Of a stretch of 18,478 nucleotides of DNA, positions 1,239-10,100 are shown one piece after another. Under the pieces are notes generated by a model. It was not told the origin of the DNA, did not search any database, and saw only the letters and a list, made by a program, of their open reading frames with translations. The stretch spans positions 1-18,478 of the forward strand of contig DAOVRJ010000011.1 in NCBI GenBank assembly GCA_030628225.1. Direction: 5' to 3'. Origin of the DNA: Candidatus Zixiibacteriota bacterium (GTDB taxonomy: Bacteria; SM23-81). The translations under genes and the position numbers were made by a program. Each line of letters starts with the position of its first letter. Position 1 is the first letter of the stretch.

Positions 1239-2573
1239 ATGCTCCCAACCTTCAACATAATCAGCCTGGGCTGTCCCAAGAACCTGGTGGACGCCGAGCG
1301 GCTGGTGGCCGCCCTGGAAGGGGCCGGCTACCAGATGCAGCAGGATCCGGCTCAGGCACAGATCATCCTGGTGAACACCTGCGGGTTCATCGAGGATGCC
1401 CGGCAGGAGTCCCTGCAGACCATCGCCCAGATGGCCCGGCACAAGCAGACCGGCAAGTGCCGCGGCCTGATCGTCACCGGCTGCCTCTCCCAGCGATATC
1501 CTCAGGCCCTGCGGAAGCAGATGCCCGCGGTGGACGCCTTTTTGGGCATCGGCGGGCAGGACGATATCGTCTCCGTCTGCCAGAAGATCCTGGACGGGCC
1601 GGACTCACGGCCCTATGTGCTGCACGATCCCAACAGCCTGGTGGAGGAGGCCATCCCCCGGCGCCAGCTGACCCTGGGGCACAGCGCCTATCTGAAGATC
1701 GCCGACGGCTGCGACAACCGCTGCGCCTACTGCGCCATCCCCATCATCCGCGGGAAATATCGCAGCCGAAAGCTGGAGGTCATCGAGGACGAGGCCAAAG
1801 AGATGGCCGCCCAGGGCGTGCGGGAGATCAGTCTCATCGCTCAGGACACCACCACCTATGGCAGGGACCTGTACGGTGAGCTCAAATTGACGGAGCTGCT
1901 GGACCGGCTGTGCCAGATCGATGGCCTGCGCTGGATCCGGCTGCTGTACACCCATCCCGCCCACTACTCCGACGAGCTCATCGAGACGGTGGCCCGACAG
2001 GAGAAGATCTGCAAGTACCTGGACCTGCCCCTGCAGCACATCTGCGACGACCTGCTGACGGCCATGAACCGCCGGGTCACCCACCAACAGATCATCGATC
2101 TGCTGAGCGATCTGCGGTCCAAAATCCCCTGGCTGACCCTGCGCACCACCTTCATCACCGGCCTGCCCGGGGAAACGGAGGAGCACTTCCGTCAGTTGAT
2201 GGAATTCGTCGGACAATTCCGCTTCCAGAAGCTGGGGGCCTTCTCCTATTCCCCGGAACAGGGCACCCCGGCGGCGGACATGCCCCACCGGCCGAAGAAG
2301 GGGGTGGCCGATCGCCGTCTGGACCAGTTGCTCCAGCTCCAGCGACAGATCTCCCTGCAGCGCAACCAGGCCATGGCCGGAGAGGAGATCACCGTGCTGG
2401 TGGACGCGGCCGTCTCCGCAGACGACTGGAACTATGTGGGCCGGACCCAGGCCGAGGCCCCGGACATCGACGGGCACATCTACCTGCAGGGTGAAGATCT
2501 TCATCCCGGGGATTTCGTTCGCGCCCAGGTGACCGGTTTTTCGGAGTATGATCTGTTCGCCGAGGCGATTTGA
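1239..2573 (+). CDS. rimO: Ribosomal protein S12 methylthiotransferase RimO
   Basis: The product is a 444-residue radical-SAM methylthiotransferase that adds a methylthio group to the conserved aspartate of ribosomal protein S12. The N-terminal UPF0004-type domain opens with SLGCPKNLVDAE, the RimO (rather than MiaB) signature. Cysteines 12, 48 and 82 are placed to hold the auxiliary 4Fe-4S cluster. The radical-SAM motif is C158-x3-C162-x2-C165 in CDNRCAYC, followed by IPIIRGKYRSR. A C-terminal TRAM-like segment runs from about residue 377 to the end. Length and motifs are complete. The ATG at 1239 sits just before the family's conserved start; there is no Shine-Dalgarno because the leader is an AT-rich heptamer repeat, so translation may depend on an unstructured leader. 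It stands alone, with repeat-filled spacers on both sides. Confidence 0.96.
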   Translation: MLPTFNIISLGCPKNLVDAERLVAALEGAGYQMQQDPAQAQIILVNTCGFIEDARQESLQTIAQMARHKQTGKCRGLIVTGCLSQRYPQALRKQMPAVDAFLGIGGQDDIVSVCQKILDGPDSRPYVLHDPNSLVEEAIPRRQLTLGHSAYLKIADGCDNRCAYCAIPIIRGKYRSRKLEVIEDEAKEMAAQGVREISLIAQDTTTYGRDLYGELKLTELLDRLCQIDGLRWIRLLYTHPAHYSDELIETVARQEKICKYLDLPLQHICDDLLTAMNRRVTHQQIIDLLSDLRSKIPWLTLRTTFITGLPGETEEHFRQLMEFVGQFRFQKLGAFSYSPEQGTPAADMPHRPKKGVADRRLDQLLQLQRQISLQRNQAMAGEEITVLVDAAVSADDWNYVGRTQAEAPDIDGHIYLQGEDLHPGDFVRAQVTGFSEYDLFAEAI

Positions 2574-2949: not shown

Positions 2950-4482
2950 ATGTCTGCGGAGAAAGCTCCTCAAAAACTCTTGCTGGTGGATGCCGACACT
3001 AATCAGCGGGCTCTTCTGACCGGCTTCTTCAAACGGCACGACTTCCAGGTCACTCAGGCCTCCGACGGCAGCCAGGCCCGTAAGATCCTCCGCCGCGGGC
3101 CCCAGGATGTCCTGGTGGTGGACCTGTCCCTGCCCGACTCCGACGGCATCGGATTGGTCCAGCTGGCCCGCAGGGATAATCCTGGGGCCATCTGCATGGT
3201 GATCACCGACAAGGGAGGGGAAAGCCTGGGCCTGAAAGCTCTTCGCGCGGGCGCCGATGACCTCTTTCAGCGGCCGGTGAAGCTGCGGATTTTGGGCGAG
3301 GCCATCAAAAAGGCCCAGGACCGGCGGACATTTCTCCGGGAAAGTCACCTGGTGGGCAATAGCCCGGCCATGCGCCGCATCTACGAGACCATCGAGCAGA
3401 TCGCCGCCACGGACATCACCGCCATGATAGTGGGCGAAAGCGGAACAGGCAAGGAGCTGGTGGCCCGGGCCATTCACCTGAAAAGCCGCCGCCGCGGCGG
3501 CCCTTTCTTAGCGGTTAACTGCGGGGCTCTGGCCGAGGGTATTATAGACAGCGAGCTGTTCGGTCACGAGCGGGGAGCCTTCACCGGAGCGGTCAGCCGC
3601 CGGGCGGGATACTTCGAGCTGGCCGATGGCGGCACCCTGTTCCTGGACGAGGTGTCCGAGCTGCCCCCGGCCACACAGGTGAGATTGCTCCGCGTGCTGG
3701 AGGAGCAGGAGTTCATGCGGGTCGGCGGAACCAGCCCCATTAAGGTGGATGTGAGGCTCATCGCCGCCACCAACAAGGATCTGGAAGAGGCGGTGGAGCA
3801 GGGCCAGTTCCGGGAGGATCTTTACTACCGGCTCAATGTGGTACTGGTCCACATTCCCCCTCTGCGCGAGAGAAGGGATGATATCCCTCTGCTGGTGCAG
3901 ACCTTCATCGGACAATATCGCCATCAGGCCAAGGCACGTTTCCAGGGCATTTCCGGCCAGGCCATGGAACTGCTAAAACAGTACAACTGGCCCGGAAACG
4001 TGCGCGAGCTGAGAAATTTAGTGGAGAGTCTCATGGTCCTCTCTCCTGATCGGGAAGTCCGCCCGGAGGATATTCCCAAATACCTCCGTCCCCGGGCCAC
4101 CCCCAGCGCCAATTTGCCCGTGCGGGTGGAGAAAACCAGGGAACAGGCGGAGCGGGAGATCATCTACAAGACCCTTCTGGGCCTGCGAGCAGACGTGGCC
4201 GAGCTGAAAGGGCTTCTCGCCGGAGAGCACAGGCCCCGGCCACCCATGGGGGTGCACTCCCGGCACACGGACCTGGTGGAGGAGGGCGACCAGGCCCAAC
4301 AGGAGCCGGCCGGCGAAACGGTGCAGTTCCCGGTGGGCACCGACATGTCCCGGGTGGAGAGGGATATGATCCGCAAAACCCTGCAGCATACCGGCGGCAA
4401 CCGCAAGAAGGCGGCCAAGCTGCTGGGCATCGGCGAGCGGACATTGTATCGGAAGATTCAGGCGTATGGGTTGAATGGATGA
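2950..4482 (+). CDS. NtrC-family sigma-54-dependent response regulator
   Basis: The product is a 510-residue enhancer-binding protein. The receiver domain (about 9-125) has D14/D16, the likely phosphoacceptor D58 in VVDLSLPDSDG, and T86. The usual receiver lysine (K-P) is R108-P109. The AAA+ domain (about 133-365) has Walker A GESGTGKE (162-169), the sigma-54 contact loop GAFTGA (209-214), Walker B LFLDE (230-234), N275, R294 and WPGNVREL (347-354). A helical linker (about 393-425) and a Pro/Glu-rich stretch (426-465) precede a Fis-type helix-turn-helix (about 468-508). The start has AGAGGAGA nine bases upstream. It remodels sigma-54 polymerase at distant dyads. No histidine kinase is adjacent. 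The hsp20-dnaK sigma-54 promoter lies ~600 bp downstream, which makes that operon its most obvious candidate target (inference). Confidence 0.93.
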   Translation: MSAEKAPQKLLLVDADTNQRALLTGFFKRHDFQVTQASDGSQARKILRRGPQDVLVVDLSLPDSDGIGLVQLARRDNPGAICMVITDKGGESLGLKALRAGADDLFQRPVKLRILGEAIKKAQDRRTFLRESHLVGNSPAMRRIYETIEQIAATDITAMIVGESGTGKELVARAIHLKSRRRGGPFLAVNCGALAEGIIDSELFGHERGAFTGAVSRRAGYFELADGGTLFLDEVSELPPATQVRLLRVLEEQEFMRVGGTSPIKVDVRLIAATNKDLEEAVEQGQFREDLYYRLNVVLVHIPPLRERRDDIPLLVQTFIGQYRHQAKARFQGISGQAMELLKQYNWPGNVRELRNLVESLMVLSPDREVRPEDIPKYLRPRATPSANLPVRVEKTREQAEREIIYKTLLGLRADVAELKGLLAGEHRPRPPMGVHSRHTDLVEEGDQAQQEPAGETVQFPVGTDMSRVERDMIRKTLQHTGGNRKKAAKLLGIGERTLYRKIQAYGLNG

Positions 4483-4492
4483 GGAAAGATTA

Positions 4493-4583
4493 GAGTTAGG
4501 CGAGTTGAGAGAGTTTTGAGAGTTCAGAGAGTTAGGCGAGTTGAGAGAGTTTTGAGAGTTCAGAGAGTTAGGCGAGTTGAGAG
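4493..4583 (+). repeat. 36-bp tandem repeat built of 9-nt AGTT units
   Basis: The unit beginning GAGTTAGGCGAGTTGAGAG starts at 4493, 4529 and 4565, giving two full 36-bp copies and a 19-nt third. Each 36-mer consists of four 9-nt units ending in AGTT. It begins 11 nt after the regulator's stop codon and is the left arm of composite element B. The two full copies look identical, which suggests recent expansion. Confidence 0.85.
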
Positions 4584-4836
4584 CATCTTGCGCTCGGAGC
4601 ATATTGAACTCGGAGCTCGGAGTGCCACCCCCCACCCCTTTAATTCGATCTTAATTTCTTTAGCTCCGAGTTCCACGTTCCGCATTCCGCGCTCAATAGG
4701 GTGGTAACTCTATAACTCAGTAAACTCATTAGAAAAGACAGAGACTCGGGGATCGGGAATCGTAAAACACATCATAAGTCCGTTTGTTTTACGAATCTCG
4801 AGTCTCGAATCTCGGCCTTTCACCAGTATCCAGTAT
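4584..4836. repeat. Composite nested-palindrome repeat element B
   Basis: This continues the 36-bp array with the same plan as element A. CTCGGAG heptamers (4609-4622) face AGCTCCG, AGTTCCA, CGTTCCG and CATTCCG (4662-4689). AACTC units at 8-9-nt spacing (about 4706-4728) complement the 9-nt AGTT units. A separate hairpin follows: GAGACTC-type heptamers (4741-4761) and CGTAAAACA (4761-4769) pair with TGTTTTACG (4785-4793) and three GAATCTC/GAGTCTC heptamers (4793-4813). Two CCAGTAT heptamers (4823-4836) end the element and match the ATCCAGN units of element A. Confidence 0.78.
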
Positions 4837-4883: not shown

Positions 4884-4966
4884 GCCATTTTGGCAGTTCA
4901 TTTGTCAAAATGGCCTTTCTTTTCGTCATATCTGCCATATTGGCTGTTTCTGTGCGTCAAAATGGC
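4884..4966. promoter_or_regulatory. Four phased dyads, probable upstream activating sites for a sigma-54 activator
   Basis: Four 11-nt dyads of form GYCA-N3-TGGC are seen: GCCATTTTGGC (4884-4894), GTCAAAATGGC (4904-4914), GCCATATTGGC (4934-4944) and GTCAAAATGGC (4956-4966). Centre-to-centre distances are 20, 30 and 22 bp, close to whole helical turns. They lie about 110-190 bp upstream of the -24/-12 promoter at 5075-5091, the normal distance for enhancer-binding-protein sites. Which protein binds them is inference; the activator at 2950-4482 is the nearest candidate. Confidence 0.72.
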
Positions 4967-5074
4967 GTATGTTTTCATCGCTGCACAGAACTGGCAAAAG
5001 CGAGGAAATGTTTTTCTTTAGGAAACACTTTGCCTTCCAACGCATTAAAGAAGCCGCTTGCCAACAGGACCTAA

Positions 5075-5123
5075 CTGGCACGACAGTTGCACTAGATGAA
5101 TAATGGTGTGCAAAAAAGCGCAC
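5075..5123 (+). promoter_or_regulatory. Sigma-54 (-24/-12) promoter and leader hairpin of the hsp20-dnaK cluster
   Basis: CTGGCACGACAGTTGCA at 5075-5091 agrees with the sigma-54 consensus YTGGCACGRNNNTTGCW at all defined positions. GG is at 5077-5078 and GC at 5089-5090, with the required 10 bases between. Transcription would start near 5102. The leader then opens with a small hairpin, GTGTGC-(A6)-GCGCAC (5106-5123, one G-U pair), which may protect the 5' end. The hsp20 start codon is about 60 nt downstream of the predicted start. No CIRCE or HAIR operator is seen in this spacer. Confidence 0.88.
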
Positions 5124-5163: not shown

Positions 5164-5610
5164 ATGGCGATCATGAGATGGAGACCGTGGGGAGACCTGC
5201 TTAGCGTCGAGGACGAGATGAATCAACTGTTCGGCGATTTCCTCGGCCGGGTCCCGGCAAGACGGGCTGAAACCACGCAGCGGTGGTGTCCAGCGGTAGA
5301 TATTTACGAGGACGAGGACAGCCTGCACATCGACGTGGAGATTCCGGGGATGAAGCAAGAGGAAATCAATGTCTCGCTGGAGAACAATGTGCTGTCTCTC
5401 AGAGGAGAGAAAAAGCAACAGGAGGAGGTCAAGGAGGTGAATTACCACCGCTGGGAGCGCAGACACGGCTCTTTCTCCAGGGCCTTCGAGCTGCCGGTGA
5501 CGGTCCAGTCGGACAAGATCAGCGCCTCGTATAAAAATGGGGTCTTGCGCGTCGTCCTCCCGAAAACAGAGGAGGTTAAACCGAAAGATATCCCCATCGA
5601 GGTGAAATAA
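5164..5610 (+). CDS. Small heat shock protein, Hsp20/alpha-crystallin family (first copy)
   Basis: The product is a 148-residue ATP-independent holdase that binds unfolding cytoplasmic proteins and hands them to DnaK. The N-terminal arm carries RWRPWGDL and EMNQLF. The alpha-crystallin domain spans about 41-133, with VEIPGM at 58-63 and the hallmark ASYKNGVL at 121-128. The C-terminal IPI motif (143-145), which docks between oligomer subunits, is present. The start is fixed by AAGGAGGTGA shortly upstream of the ATG. It is the first gene behind the sigma-54 promoter. The next gene encodes a close paralogue of identical length (about 74% identical by my manual count), so the pair is a tandem duplication. 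Confidence 0.96.
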   Translation: MAIMRWRPWGDLLSVEDEMNQLFGDFLGRVPARRAETTQRWCPAVDIYEDEDSLHIDVEIPGMKQEEINVSLENNVLSLRGEKKQQEEVKEVNYHRWERRHGSFSRAFELPVTVQSDKISASYKNGVLRVVLPKTEEVKPKDIPIEVK

Positions 5611-5672
5611 TAAACCTTCAACCATAAAACAGAGATTGACAAGCTTCAACAACCATCAGGAGGTGAACGAAA

Positions 5673-6119
5673 ATGGCGATCATGAGGTGGAGACCGTGGG
5701 GAGACCTGGTCAGCGTCGGGGACGAGATGAATCAACTGTTCGGCGACTTCTTCGACCGGGTCCCCGAGAGACGCCCGTGGGCTCTGAAGCGGTGGAGCCC
5801 GGCGGTGGATATCTCCGAGAACAAGGACAGCATCCATGTTGATGTGGAAATTCCGGGGATGAAAAAGGAGGACATCAGGGTTTCGCTGGAGAACAACGTG
5901 CTGATGCTCAAGGGCGAGAAAAAGCAGGAGCGGGAAATCAACGAACAGAACTGCCATCGCCTGGAGAGAAGGTACGGATCATTCGTAAGATCCTTCGAGC
6001 TGCCCATGCCCGTTCAGGCCGACAAGATCAAGGCCTCCTATAAAAACGGGGTCCTGCATGTCGAGCTGCCCAAGGCGGAAGAGGTTAAGCCCAAGGAGAT
6101 TCCCATCGAGGTGAAGTAA
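5673..6119 (+). CDS. Small heat shock protein, Hsp20/alpha-crystallin family (second copy)
   Basis: This is the second 148-residue Hsp20, colinear with the first without an indel. The alpha-crystallin domain (about 41-133) keeps VEIPGM and ASYKNGVL, and the C-terminal IPI motif is intact. Divergence is concentrated in residues 32-39 of the N-terminal arm, which in this family influences oligomer size and client choice. The start is supported by AGGAGGTGA upstream of the ATG. The 62-nt gap from the first copy has no clear promoter or terminator, so co-transcription from the sigma-54 promoter is likely. Mixed oligomers of the two paralogues are possible but not shown by sequence. Confidence 0.96.
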   Translation: MAIMRWRPWGDLVSVGDEMNQLFGDFFDRVPERRPWALKRWSPAVDISENKDSIHVDVEIPGMKKEDIRVSLENNVLMLKGEKKQEREINEQNCHRLERRYGSFVRSFELPMPVQADKIKASYKNGVLHVELPKAEEVKPKEIPIEVK

Positions 6120-6162
6120 ACTCAGACGACGCGGCTTAAGGATTCGCTTTCCCACGCCGCAG

Positions 6163-6227
6163 AACAGGCAGGGGTCTCGTTCTCCCCAAAGAATTGATCT
6201 TGGGCGGCAGAAGGATCCCTGCCTGTT
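6163..6227 (+). other. Long-range hairpin in the hsp20-dnaK spacer
   Basis: AACAGGCAGGG (6163-6173) and CCCTGCCTGTT (6217-6227) are a perfect 11-bp inverted repeat. Inside it, CCCAA (6185-6189) can pair with TTGGG (6200-6204). No T-run follows. It may be an mRNA processing or stability structure that sets hsp20 versus dnaK levels, or a weak attenuator. The dnaK Shine-Dalgarno lies about 50 nt beyond and is not sequestered by the stem. I see no convincing separate dnaK promoter. Confidence 0.55.
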
Positions 6228-6287
6228 GCTTTATCGAAAGAAAAAGTTCAAGCAGACAAATAAGAATATTACCAGGAGGAATCAATC

Positions 6288-8204
6288 ATGGCAAAAATAA
6301 TCGGTATCGACCTGGGAACCACCAACTCCTGCGTGGCCGTGATGGAGGGTGGAGACCCGGTGGTCATCCCCAACGCCGAGGGTGGCAGAACAACCCCGTC
6401 GGTGGTGGCATTTTCAAAATCCAATGAGCGTCTGGTGGGCCAGGTGGCCAAAAGACAGGCCATCACCAACCCTCAGAACACCATCTCCTCTATCAAGCGA
6501 TTCATGGGCCGAAAGCACAGCGAGGTAGTCCAGGAGAAGAAGGAAGTCCCCTTCCAGGTGGTCAAAGGACCAAACGGTAACGCTCGCATCAAAGCCAATA
6601 ACAAAGAGTACTCCCCGCCGGAGATCTCGGCCATGATCCTGCAGAAGATGCGCCAGACCGCCGAGGACTATTTAGGGGAAAAGATCTCCGCGGCGATCAT
6701 CACGGTTCCGGCCTACTTCAACGACTCTCAGCGCCAGGCCACCAAGGACGCCGGACGGATCGCCGGGCTGGATGTTAAGCGCATCATCAACGAGCCCACA
6801 GCGGCCTCCCTGGCCTATGGTCTGGACAAGAAGAAGGATGAGAAGATCGCCGTCTTCGACCTGGGCGGAGGCACTTTCGATATCTCCATCCTGGAGTTAG
6901 GCGACGGTGTCTTCGAGGTGAAATCAACCAACGGTGACACCCACCTGGGCGGCGATGACTTCGACGAGAAGGTGATCAACTGGCTGGCCGACGAGTTCAA
7001 AAAACAGGAGGGCATCGACCTGCGCAAGGACCCCATGGCCCTGCAGCGATTGAAAGAAGCGGCCGAGAAGGCCAAGTGCGAGCTCTCCTCCTCCATGCAG
7101 ACGGATATCAACCTGCCTTTCATCACCGCCGATCAGGACGGGCCCAAGCACCTGAACATCACCCTGACCAGGGCAAAACTGGAGCAACTGGTAGACGACT
7201 TGATTCAGCGGACCATGGGGCCCTGCAAAAAAGCTTTGCAGGACGCCGGACTCTCCGCCGCGGACATCGATGAGGTCATCCTGGTGGGCGGCCAGACGCG
7301 CATGCCCAAGGTTCAGGAAACGGTGAAGAGCATCTTCGGAAAAGAGCCCCACAAGGGCGTCAATCCCGACGAGGTAGTGGCTGTAGGAGCGGCCATTCAG
7401 GGTGGCGTTCTGGCCGGCGATGTCAAGGACGTTCTGCTTCTGGACGTAACACCGCTGTCGTTGGGCATCGAGACCCTGGGCAGCGTGGCAACCAAGCTGA
7501 TCGAGAGGAACACCACCATACCGACCAAGAAGGCCGAGATCTTCTCCACAGCGGATGACAACCAGACCACTGTAGAGATCCACGTGCTGCAGGGCGAGAG
7601 GGAGATGGCCAACGACAACAAGACCATCGGGCGTTTTCACCTGACCGGCATCCCCCCGGCACCCAGAGGAATGGCGCAGATTGAGGTTTCCTTCGACATC
7701 GACGCCAACGGCATCCTCAACGTCTCTGCCAAGGACAAGACAACTGGCAAGGAGCAGAGCATTCGCATAGAGGCCTCCAGCGGCCTGGCTGAAGAGGAGA
7801 TCCAGAAGATGGTCAAGGATGCTCAGGCCCATGCCGGCGAGGACAAACGCAAACGCGAGCAGATCGACGCAAGGAACAGCGCCGACCGGCTAGTCTACGA
7901 AACGGAAAAAAACCTCCAGGAGTATGGCGATAAGATCGACCCCGGCACTCGAGCCAATGTCGAGGCGGCCACCGGTCGTGTCAAAGAAGCGCTCAAGGGC
8001 GACAACGCCGATGAGATCAAATCGGCGACCGAGGCCTTGACCCAGATCTGGCAAAAGGCGGCGGCCACCATGTATCAGCAGGCATCGGCACAGCAAGGTC
8101 CTCAGGCTGGTTCCGCCCAAAGCGGTCCTCAGCAGACAGGCTCTCCGGAAGACAGTCAGGACCAGGAGAAAACCGTGGACGCCGATTTTGAGGTCGTCGA
8201 ATAA
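6288..8204 (+). CDS. dnaK: Molecular chaperone DnaK (Hsp70)
   Basis: The product is a 638-residue cytosolic Hsp70, the usual length for bacterial DnaK. The ATPase domain shows [13 protein letters not shown] near the start, [29 protein letters not shown] and [14 protein letters not shown]. The interdomain linker [16 protein letters not shown] leads into the substrate-binding domain and helical lid. A Gln/Ser/Gly-rich tail ends DADFEVVE, typical of the DnaK C-terminus. The ATG is preceded by AGGAGGAATC. The gene lies 168 nt after the second hsp20 and before grpE, so it probably shares the sigma-54 transcript with the holdases whose clients it refolds. The order dnaK-grpE-dnaJ without hrcA differs from the common hrcA-grpE-dnaK-dnaJ layout. 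Confidence 0.98.
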
Positions 8205-8221
8205 CACCATCAGCAAAAGCG

Positions 8222-8258
8222 ACGAAGGGGCTGCTCTGGAGTTGAGCAGCCCCTTCGT
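8222..8258 (+). terminator. Strong 15-bp hairpin between dnaK and grpE
   Basis: ACGAAGGGGCTGCTC (8222-8236) and GAGCAGCCCCTTCGT (8244-8258) pair perfectly over 15 bp with a 7-nt loop. The run after it is TTAAATGC, not a proper T-tract, so termination is likely partial. Placed 16 nt before the grpE Shine-Dalgarno, it could lower co-chaperone expression relative to DnaK or protect the 3' end of the dnaK message. Confidence 0.7.
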
Positions 8259-8287
8259 TAAATGCTATAACTACAGGAGAATGGGCC

Positions 8288-8794
8288 TTGGCTGAAAAAA
8301 TCGAAGTGCTGATGGAAGAAGATCAGGAAGAAACTGTGCCGGTTGAAGAGCAGTTGGAGAAGCCTGCCGACGATAAATACGACGAGCACATCGAACATCT
8401 GCAGAGGTTAAAGGCGGAATTCGATAACTACCGTAAACGGATACAGCGGGAGCGAGAGGAGCTGGAGGATCACGCCAAGGCTGATGTCTGCGGAAAGCTG
8501 CTCCCCATCCTGGACGACCTGAAGCGGGCGATGGTATACTCTGATGTAGACCGTGAAGCTTTGCGCTCTGGCCTCGAGCTGGTGCATAAAAACCTCAAGT
8601 CCATCCTCCAGACGCTGGGCCTGGAAACCGTTCCTGCCCAAGGTCAACCCTTTGATCCCCACGTTCATGAGGCGGTCATGGTGGAAGAGGCCCCGGCAGT
8701 TCAGAGTGAGTGCGTCACCAACGTGCTGCAGACAGGATATCTGTTCAAGGGCAAACTTTTACGTCCGGCAAAGGTGACGGTCTCCAAGACGTAG
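8288..8794 (+). CDS. grpE: Nucleotide exchange factor GrpE
   Basis: The product is a 168-residue GrpE, which releases ADP from DnaK. An acidic N-terminus (1-28) leads into a long helix (about 30-66, with LKAEFDNYRKRIQRE). The C-terminal beta-domain carries the signature FDPHVHEAVMVEE and ends RPAKVTVSK. The start is an unusual TTG at 8288. AGGAGA at 8275-8280 is spaced 7 nt from it. An ATG at 8281 touches the Shine-Dalgarno, is out of frame and stops after four codons, so it is not the start. The rare start codon and the upstream hairpin both point to modest expression relative to dnaK. Confidence 0.94.
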   Translation: MAEKIEVLMEEDQEETVPVEEQLEKPADDKYDEHIEHLQRLKAEFDNYRKRIQREREELEDHAKADVCGKLLPILDDLKRAMVYSDVDREALRSGLELVHKNLKSILQTLGLETVPAQGQPFDPHVHEAVMVEEAPAVQSECVTNVLQTGYLFKGKLLRPAKVTVSKT

Positions 8795-8981
8795 AGGTGA
8801 CGAGCTGTGTTCTCTGACGAATTGTTTGCATTACATAAAGTGATCTGGCCTCGGACAAGAACAAAAGACTGCTTTGCGCAAGTGGAACAAGTTCGATAAA
8901 TTGCTTAATTGTTATTCTTATCTTACGTTTTGAGCATCGATAATCTTTTGCAATAGAAAAAATCGAAAGGCTATTTATCCA

Positions 8982-10100
8982 ATGGCCAATAGAGATTACT
9001 ATAAAATACTGGGCGTCGGGGAAAAAGCCAGCCAGGAAAAGATCAAAAAAGCTCACCGGAAGCTGGCCAAAAAGTGTCATCCCGATCACAATCCCGGGGA
9101 CAAAGCGGCTGAGGAGAAGTTCAAGGAGATCTCTCATGCCTACGAGGTGCTCAGCGACCCCAAGAAAAGAGAGCAGTATGATCAGCTGCGCAAGTTCGCG
9201 CCCGGAGGGTTTCCGGGCTTTGGCTATGGAACGAACAAGGGCTTTCACACCCGGGGCTTCAAGCGCTCCCCGGGGGGTGCTTTCTCCTTCGAGGACCTGG
9301 GAGGATTCGGGGGCATAGGGGATATCTTCCGGGAGGTCTTCGATCTGGGCGGAACAACACGGCAGGCTAAATACGGTCCTCAAAAAGGAGAGGATCTCCG
9401 CTTCGAGATCAAGGTGCCCTTCGACCTGGCCATCTCCGGGGGAAAAACTCTCATCAAGGTGCCCAGGGAAGAGGTCTGTCCCGCCTGCTCCGGAACGGGA
9501 GCTCAGCCGGGATCCTCAACCTCGATCTGCCCGGACTGTCATGGTCAGGGTTTTATCTCCTTCGCTCAGGGAGGCTTCTCTGTGAACCGGCCATGCCCCC
9601 GATGCTATGGTCGTGGAACCATTATCCGGCAACCCTGCCGGAGCTGCGCCGGCCTTGGCCGGATTAAAAAAACGCGCAGCTTTTCCGTCAGGGTGCCGGC
9701 GGGCATCTCAGATGGGCGCAAAATTCGCCTGCGCAACCAGGGTCTTCCCGGAACCGGTGACGGTCCTCCAGGCGACATCATCCTCACTGTGCGCCTGGGA
9801 GAACACCGTTTCTTCCGCCGCAAAGGCCGGGACATTCTCTGCCAGGTGCCCATCAACATCGCCCAGGCAGTCTTGGGCACTCGCATTCGCGTGCGAACCA
9901 TCAACGGCCATGTGGTGGTGAAGATCCCCCCGGGGACCCAGCCGGGAACGGTTTTCCGTTTAAAAAGCAAGGGTTTGCGCTCCAACGGAAAACGGGGTGA
10001 TCAGCTGGTCAAGATCACGGTCAACATTCCCAAGCAGATCGGCGAACGGCAAACGAAACTGATGGAAGAGTTCGCCCGCCAGGGAGATCTGGCTCATTGA
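8982..10100 (+). CDS. dnaJ: Chaperone protein DnaJ (Hsp40, type I)
   Basis: The product is a 372-residue co-chaperone that stimulates DnaK ATP hydrolysis and delivers substrates. The J-domain (about 4-70) has HPD at 33-35. A Gly/Phe-rich region (about 74-125) follows. The zinc domain has four CxxCxGxG repeats: C166/C169, C183/C186, C205/C208 and C219/C222. The C-terminal substrate-binding region ends by about residue 360. All type I parts are present. The ATG at 8982 has only a weak GAAAGG upstream. The 187-nt spacer after grpE is AT-rich, with no promoter or terminator that I can call firmly, so dnaJ may be co-transcribed or have its own weak promoter. Confidence 0.97.

Follow-up and report, generated by a model that had tools for sequence, protein, structure and literature searches.

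The question raised by this locus is what controls a chaperone cluster, hsp20-hsp20-dnaK-grpE-dnaJ (5164-10100), that is separated by a 681-bp spacer from a gene for a candidate transcriptional activator (2950-4482). Within the window, by which we mean the whole stretch of 18,478 nucleotides that was analysed, Pfam confirms the gene order hsp20-hsp20-dnaK-grpE-dnaJ, of which an earlier note made from the sequence alone had named hsp20-hsp20-dnaK, and the features that bear on the question are as follows.

1239-2573, plus strand: rimO (TIGR01125), upstream neighbour of the activator gene
2950-4482, plus strand: candidate activator, an orphan NtrC-type bEBP (Pfam), member of the clade defined by C-terminal profile A2
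4884-4894, no strand assigned: putative enhancer dyad 1, GCCATTTTGGC, exact GYCANNNTGRC, same position in the related genome G001
4904-4914, no strand assigned: putative enhancer dyad 2, GTCAAAATGGC, exact, 20 bp from dyad 1, likewise in G001
4934-4944, no strand assigned: putative enhancer dyad 3, GCCATATTGGC, exact, 30 bp from dyad 2, likewise in G001
4956-4966, no strand assigned: putative enhancer dyad 4, GTCAAAATGGC, exact, 22 bp from dyad 3, likewise in G001
5075-5091, plus strand: predicted sigma-54 -24/-12 promoter, CTGGCACGACAGTTGCA, exact match, start expected near 5102
5164-5610, plus strand: first hsp20 (PF00011, E=5e-24)
5673-6119, plus strand: second hsp20 (PF00011), 74% identity to the first
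6288-8204, plus strand: dnaK of the accessory set (PF00012), about 72% identity to the DnaK of the CIRCE operon in the same genome
8288-8794, plus strand: grpE of the accessory set (PF01025)
8982-10100, plus strand: dnaJ of the accessory set (PF00226/PF01556)

Elsewhere in the window, short near-perfect direct repeats (gagttaggcgagttgagagagttttgagagttca) occupy 4492-4590, directly 3' of the activator gene. The product of 79-615 may have a C-terminus like a type IX secretion sorting domain, which would suit a bacterium of the FCB group.

The familiar repressors of heat shock genes do not appear to act here. As the earlier note had it, neither CIRCE nor HAIR marks the locus: no CIRCE was found in the window and the lone HAIR match (869, three mismatches) is at chance level, which places hsp20-dnaK outside both the HrcA/CIRCE and the HspR/HAIR regulons. 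The hrcA gene is nevertheless present in all four genomes of the phylum that were searched. In the window's own genome (G000) groES has a perfect CIRCE in front of it, hrcA-grpE-dnaK-dnaJ has one with two mismatches, and both CIRCE-controlled sets recur in G001. Since groESL and a second hrcA-grpE-dnaK-dnaJ operon are thus CIRCE-controlled in the same genome, the view of our locus as a main chaperone operon, also taken in the earlier note, has to be abandoned, and the sigma-54 hsp20-dnaK operon is a second, accessory sHsp/DnaK system. In another genome of the phylum, G002, dnaK is located in the sigma-54 locus, and only grpE and dnaJ accompany hrcA at its own locus. The hrcA-grpE-dnaJ loci without dnaK in G002 (contig C91, L200) and G003 (contig C51, L201) have no recognisable CIRCE nearby. 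We also considered whether sigma-54 might control groESL too throughout the class to which G114 belongs, and rejected this, as each of the 30 groES loci read there has a CIRCE-like site and none has a convincing sigma-54 site.

The -24/-12 site lies 73 bp 5' of the first hsp20 gene. The perfect match claimed earlier for 5075-5091 is indeed exact and is the only exact one in the window; allowing two mismatches added a single match (13232), about what chance would give. It carries GG at -24 and GC at -12 with the invariant spacing, and these are conserved in relatives. TGGCAC-N5-TTGC occurs in 14 exact copies in the 2.34-Mb genome, nine of them reading TGGCACG, where by our own arithmetic from base composition about one TGGCACG-N4-TTGC would be expected genome-wide. 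Among these 14 sigma-54-like sites only the hsp20 copy has at least two exact dyads within 350 bp upstream. The sigma-54 idea would have fallen had the genome lacked rpoN, as the earlier note pointed out, and a full-length rpoN (466 aa) with AID, CBD and DBD domains is present. Judging by the sequence, 5075-5091 very probably has sigma-54 promoter activity.

The four upstream dyads described earlier, with spacings of 20, 30 and 22 bp, were recovered as exact GYCA-N3-TGRC sites beginning at 4884, 4904, 4934 and 4956, which corresponds to -191, -171, -141 and -119 relative to the promoter. Where 1.56 matches to GYCANNNTGRC would be expected in the window there are six, and four of these fall inside the 83 bp of the array. 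In the orientation searched, a pair of dyads 19-31 bp apart occurs once in the whole genome, at the hsp20 locus. The dyads, conserved and phased, sit where the upstream enhancer sites of a sigma-54 promoter would be looked for and are putative binding sites. A large regulon in this genome was rejected, given that no second dyad pair turned up in the orientation searched and no other sigma-54 site had two or more dyads upstream.

The same site emerged from a de novo search in which no motif was assumed. All 2,816 gapped palindromes (4-base arms, spacers of 0-10) were counted in 20 regions, each covering 250 bp upstream of a sigma-54-type hsp20 promoter; 18 of these regions (all but the window and G001) had been picked by promoter and not by dyads, and six, from Poribacteria, are mutually related at up to about 70% identity. 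GTCA-N3-TGAC ranked first, with 26 sites in 13 of the 20 regions against 0.8 sites expected, and GCCA-N3-TGGC second, with 27 sites in 14 regions against 1.3. The full site is probably TGYCA-N3-TGRCA, since ranks 3 and 4 are the same palindrome shifted one base outward. Exact dyads numbered 22 in 5.0 kb before sigma-54-type hsp20 genes compared with 8 in 17.7 kb before other hsp20 genes, and spacings between adjacent dyads cluster near multiples of 10 bp (20, 22, 30, 40, 50), with a resultant length R=0.85 at 10 bp (n=18).

The hsp20 upstream regions were drawn from a scan for Hsp20 relatives across 84,980 species genomes, and 18 of 106 had a sigma-54 site, versus 3 on the opposite strand. Sigma-54-type hsp20 promoters were found in L111 (Zixibacteria), L117, L120 (labelled Gemmatimonadota), L148 and L153, and also in KSB1, Calditrichota, one Ignavibacteria genome, one Coatesbacteria genome and Poribacteria. 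A search of relatives for the dyads together with the promoter had been suggested as a check, and both are kept in G001, G002, L111, L117 and L120. In G001, which belongs to the same family but another genus, an hsp20 pair has TGGCATGACCCTTGC at -80 and dyads at -193, -173, -143 and -121 from the promoter, reproducing the window's 20/30/22 spacing; the contig ends after this pair, leaving any link to dnaK beyond view, and another hsp20 pair, which begins 32 bp into its contig, precedes dnaK. In G002, TGGCACGCCTTTTGC lies at -84 of hsp20-dnaK-grpE and the dyads, three of them with one mismatch each, are spaced 30/21/21. In L111, L117 and L120, promoter and dyads precede hsp20-dnaK or hsp20-grpE-dnaJ-dnaK.

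Some loci have their own arrangements. In Poribacteria, two tandem sigma-54-type sites precede hsp20 (L128, L130, L138, L164, L178, L184), mostly about 60-72 bp apart and 41 bp apart in L128, and upstream of the first site five of these six loci have dyad-like sites whose spacing is 22/19 or 21/20 bp. L158 has an unusual, overlapping array of GYCAT-type half-dyads every 8 bp (GTCATTTTGTCATCCTGTCATTTTGCCATCATGCC...), 23-117 bp before its hsp20 sigma-54-like site and beside ordinarily spaced dyads.

A scan blind to gene identity was run on 394 Bacteroidota genomes, requiring a sigma-54 site with one dyad at a distance of 75-105 bp upstream. It returned 23 matches in 21 genomes, versus 8 for the reversed pattern, and five of the 23 precede hsp20 or dnaK: dyad and promoter lie 53-82 bp before hsp20 in L305, L306, L310 and L311 and 51 bp before dnaK in L318. 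Pfam confirms the genes in L305, L310, L311 and L318. L306 is nearly a copy of L305, and since these two seem closely related, four independent chaperone cases is the safer count. Given these matches before hsp20 or dnaK, the predicted dyad-promoter element is one that follows chaperones beyond its home phylum. Many of the remaining matches fall within long open frames and seem to be due to chance. That the exact combination is general in Bacteroidota was rejected, with 21 of 394 genomes matching at the stringency used and many matches located within long open frames. In L302, L303 and L304, also Bacteroidota, a dyad and sigma-54 site precede the same apparently exported protein of 311-320 aa, and the one that was scanned had no Pfam match.

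Which protein might read these sites? The gene before the spacer encodes a receiver-like domain (aa 11-119), an AAA+ sigma-54 interaction domain (PF00158) with GAFTGA at residue 209 and a Fis-type HTH (PF02954), the make-up of an NtrC-family bEBP, and its nearest solved structures are NtrC-family regulators. A canonical phosphorylatable receiver has two acids, the phospho-Asp, a Thr/Ser and a Lys; here the phospho-Asp and Thr are retained, the invariant Lys is Arg and the second acid is Ala, and because of these two replacements the predicted product is a bEBP and not a canonical response regulator. Most clade members begin at the AAA+ domain with no receiver, and receivers that do occur are broken differently, those of G064 and G069 being without the phosphoacceptor Asp. 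The protein also falls outside NorR, since by Pfam it has a receiver and no GAF domain and it scores 326 bits against NF003451, where the cut-off is 476.

Profile A2 (linker plus DNA-binding domain) was searched against 50 genomes, with strong members defined at E<1e-20. Among the FCB-type groups searched, 20 genomes had exactly one strong member apiece, carriers including G000, G002, G003, L111, L117, L120, L153, KSB1, Calditrichota and Ignavibacteria, and the co-occurrence of activator and dyads is confounded by phylogeny. L148 has a weaker member (3e-18), and none was found in NC10, Rokubacteria, Chloroflexi, Deltaproteobacteria, Coatesbacteria or Poribacteria (best matches 1e-10 to 1e-17); Poribacteria have the dyads and receiver-less, distant activators. 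L121 and L159 have the activator and a sigma-54-type hsp20 promoter with no exact dyads found, and no sigma-54-type hsp20 locus was found in G003. In G001, where the dyads are present, profile A2 detected no activator. An assembly gap is a plausible explanation, since a close rimO was not found there either and a contig breaks 32 bp before hsp20, so that one missing contig could account for both.

In other genomes the activator gene lies away from hsp20 and its usual neighbour is lptE-like. In many FCB genomes the clade adjoins this LptE-like gene, often together with miaB and a glycosyltransferase (L236-L250, L083, L084, L089, L091-L093), a neighbourhood that might connect the activator clade with assembly of the outer membrane. 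The miaB gene, which many clade members adjoin, is related to rimO, the upstream neighbour of the window's activator.

A scenario that accommodates these data, and to which we would assign a probability of roughly 75%, is that the accessory chaperones are under sigma-54 control from a phased enhancer, with the adjacent gene encoding the most likely activator. In sigma-54 systems generally, bEBP hexamers on phased sites loop to the closed complex and drive its opening with ATP. Here, sigma-54 RNA polymerase would wait at 5075-5091, and a bEBP, most likely the product of 2950-4482, would assemble on the four helically phased GYCA-N3-TGRC dyads (4884-4966), loop over 110-190 bp to the promoter and open the closed complex with ATP. 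The outcome would be that hsp20-hsp20, and probably dnaK-grpE-dnaJ as well, are under tight gating and expressed at high amplitude; we think it quite likely that the promoter reaches through dnaJ, and lean, a little less firmly, towards the adjacent-gene product as the protein that would bind these dyads.

Several findings could be read in other ways. One weak sigma-70-like match (9/12) overlaps the -24/-12 site, as might be seen if the latter were a chance match and hsp20 were served by a housekeeping-type promoter, but G001, G002 and members of several phyla retain the -24/-12 site in this position and we consider such a coincidence extremely unlikely. The dyads might instead be intrinsic terminator stems or RNA structure closing the rimO-activator transcript: dyads 1 and 2 pair into a 13-bp hairpin with a T-rich stretch behind it, and RNA of the window is more stably folded than its shuffled versions (z=-4.5). 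Two copies of any palindrome are, however, mutual inverted repeats, and what is conserved is an 11-bp site with helical spacing and not an RNA fold. Nine other dyad loci had no common fold (z -0.6 to -3.3), and for this reason RNA structure or termination was rejected as the main role of the dyads; this reading strikes us as improbable, and the dyads may double as a terminator.

A weightier alternative, if still an unlikely one, is that promoter and enhancer are real and another NtrC-family activator binds, for example a NorR-like NO sensor, the adjacent gene being a chance neighbour. There are genes for at least eight NtrC-type proteins in the genome, G001 has the dyads with no adjacent-type activator detected, and NorR acts from three tandem GT-N7-AC sites upstream of a sigma-54 promoter (PMC1274295), a pattern that fits those dyads in which both arms are GTCA/TGAC. 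Many dyads, however, have GCCA or TGGC arms and fall outside GT-N7-AC, and the targets are chaperones and not NO reductases. Furthermore, the adjacent gene is the genome's one clade member, and dyad-bearing relatives outside Poribacteria mostly carry one.

If the adjacent gene does encode the activator, classical phosphorylation is unlikely to be its signal, because the receiver is degenerate in this protein and most relatives have none. We would favor an ATPase held in check by a chaperone or another partner, in the way that PspA restrains PspF, and by this analogy offer control by a partner rather than a kinase as a tentative suggestion. It is conceivable, going by sequence conservation, that this sigma-54 activator, present in single copy, independent of phosphorylation and conserved across FCB bacteria, is a dedicated proteotoxic-stress regulator reading TGYCA-N3-TGRCA arrays; if so, the clade would be the so far unassigned activator of sigma-54 chaperone control in these phyla.

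With regard to known systems, HrcA/CIRCE is present in the window's genome for other chaperone operons and absent at the hsp20-dnaK locus. In phage-shock control by PspF/PspA a receiver-less bEBP acts via sigma-54 on a stress operon, and the activator clade resembles it, by analogy only, in its receiver-less bEBPs and sigma-54 stress operon; the targets differ, and no PspA-like partner was identified for the window's activator. We know of no enhancer array comparable to ours at E. coli ibpB. That gene, raised as a precedent in the earlier note, likewise encodes an sHsp, and a sigma-54 promoter has been reported for it (cited in PMC4370416), but it is a single sHsp gene in a sigma-32 operon, unlike hsp20-hsp20-dnaK-grpE-dnaJ. 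The likeness to NorR lies in the tandem arrangement of several palindromes ahead of a sigma-54 promoter, whereas here the arms are GYCA/TGRC, the targets are chaperones and the adjacent regulator has a receiver-like domain and not a GAF domain.

Sigma-54-type promoters at chaperone genes, an arrangement that the earlier note called unusual, have in fact been published (PMC9723704, PMC12316311). In Flavobacterium psychrophilum, SM4 sigma-54-type promoters with mapped 5' ends precede dnaK, grpE-dnaJ, groESL, htpG, clpB and lon, and the activator was left among three candidates; no description of enhancer sites for these promoters was found in the sections consulted (PMC9723704). Several main chaperone genes are thus on sigma-54 there, whereas here only the accessory sHsp/DnaK set is, groESL and the second dnaK operon having stayed with CIRCE. 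A predicted sigma-54 regulon in Bacteroidota and Planctomycetota includes IbpA-type sHsp, DnaK, DnaJ, GrpE and GroESL (PMC12316311); it rests on promoter matrices only, and the portion consulted had no chaperone enhancer code or activator and did not refer to Zixibacteria, Calditrichota or Gemmatimonadota. In a partial literature search neither the enhancer code nor the CIRCE/sigma-54 split was found described, nor was any account found in which the activator clade regulates chaperones, and what seems to be new here is a conserved enhancer code together with a candidate activator. One genome would divide the labour between CIRCE-repressed housekeeping chaperones and an activator-gated sHsp/DnaK set. 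Bacteroidota sigma-54 chaperone promoters have been mapped with no activator or signal assigned, and with a conserved enhancer code and one candidate gene to work from, that question can be put to the test.
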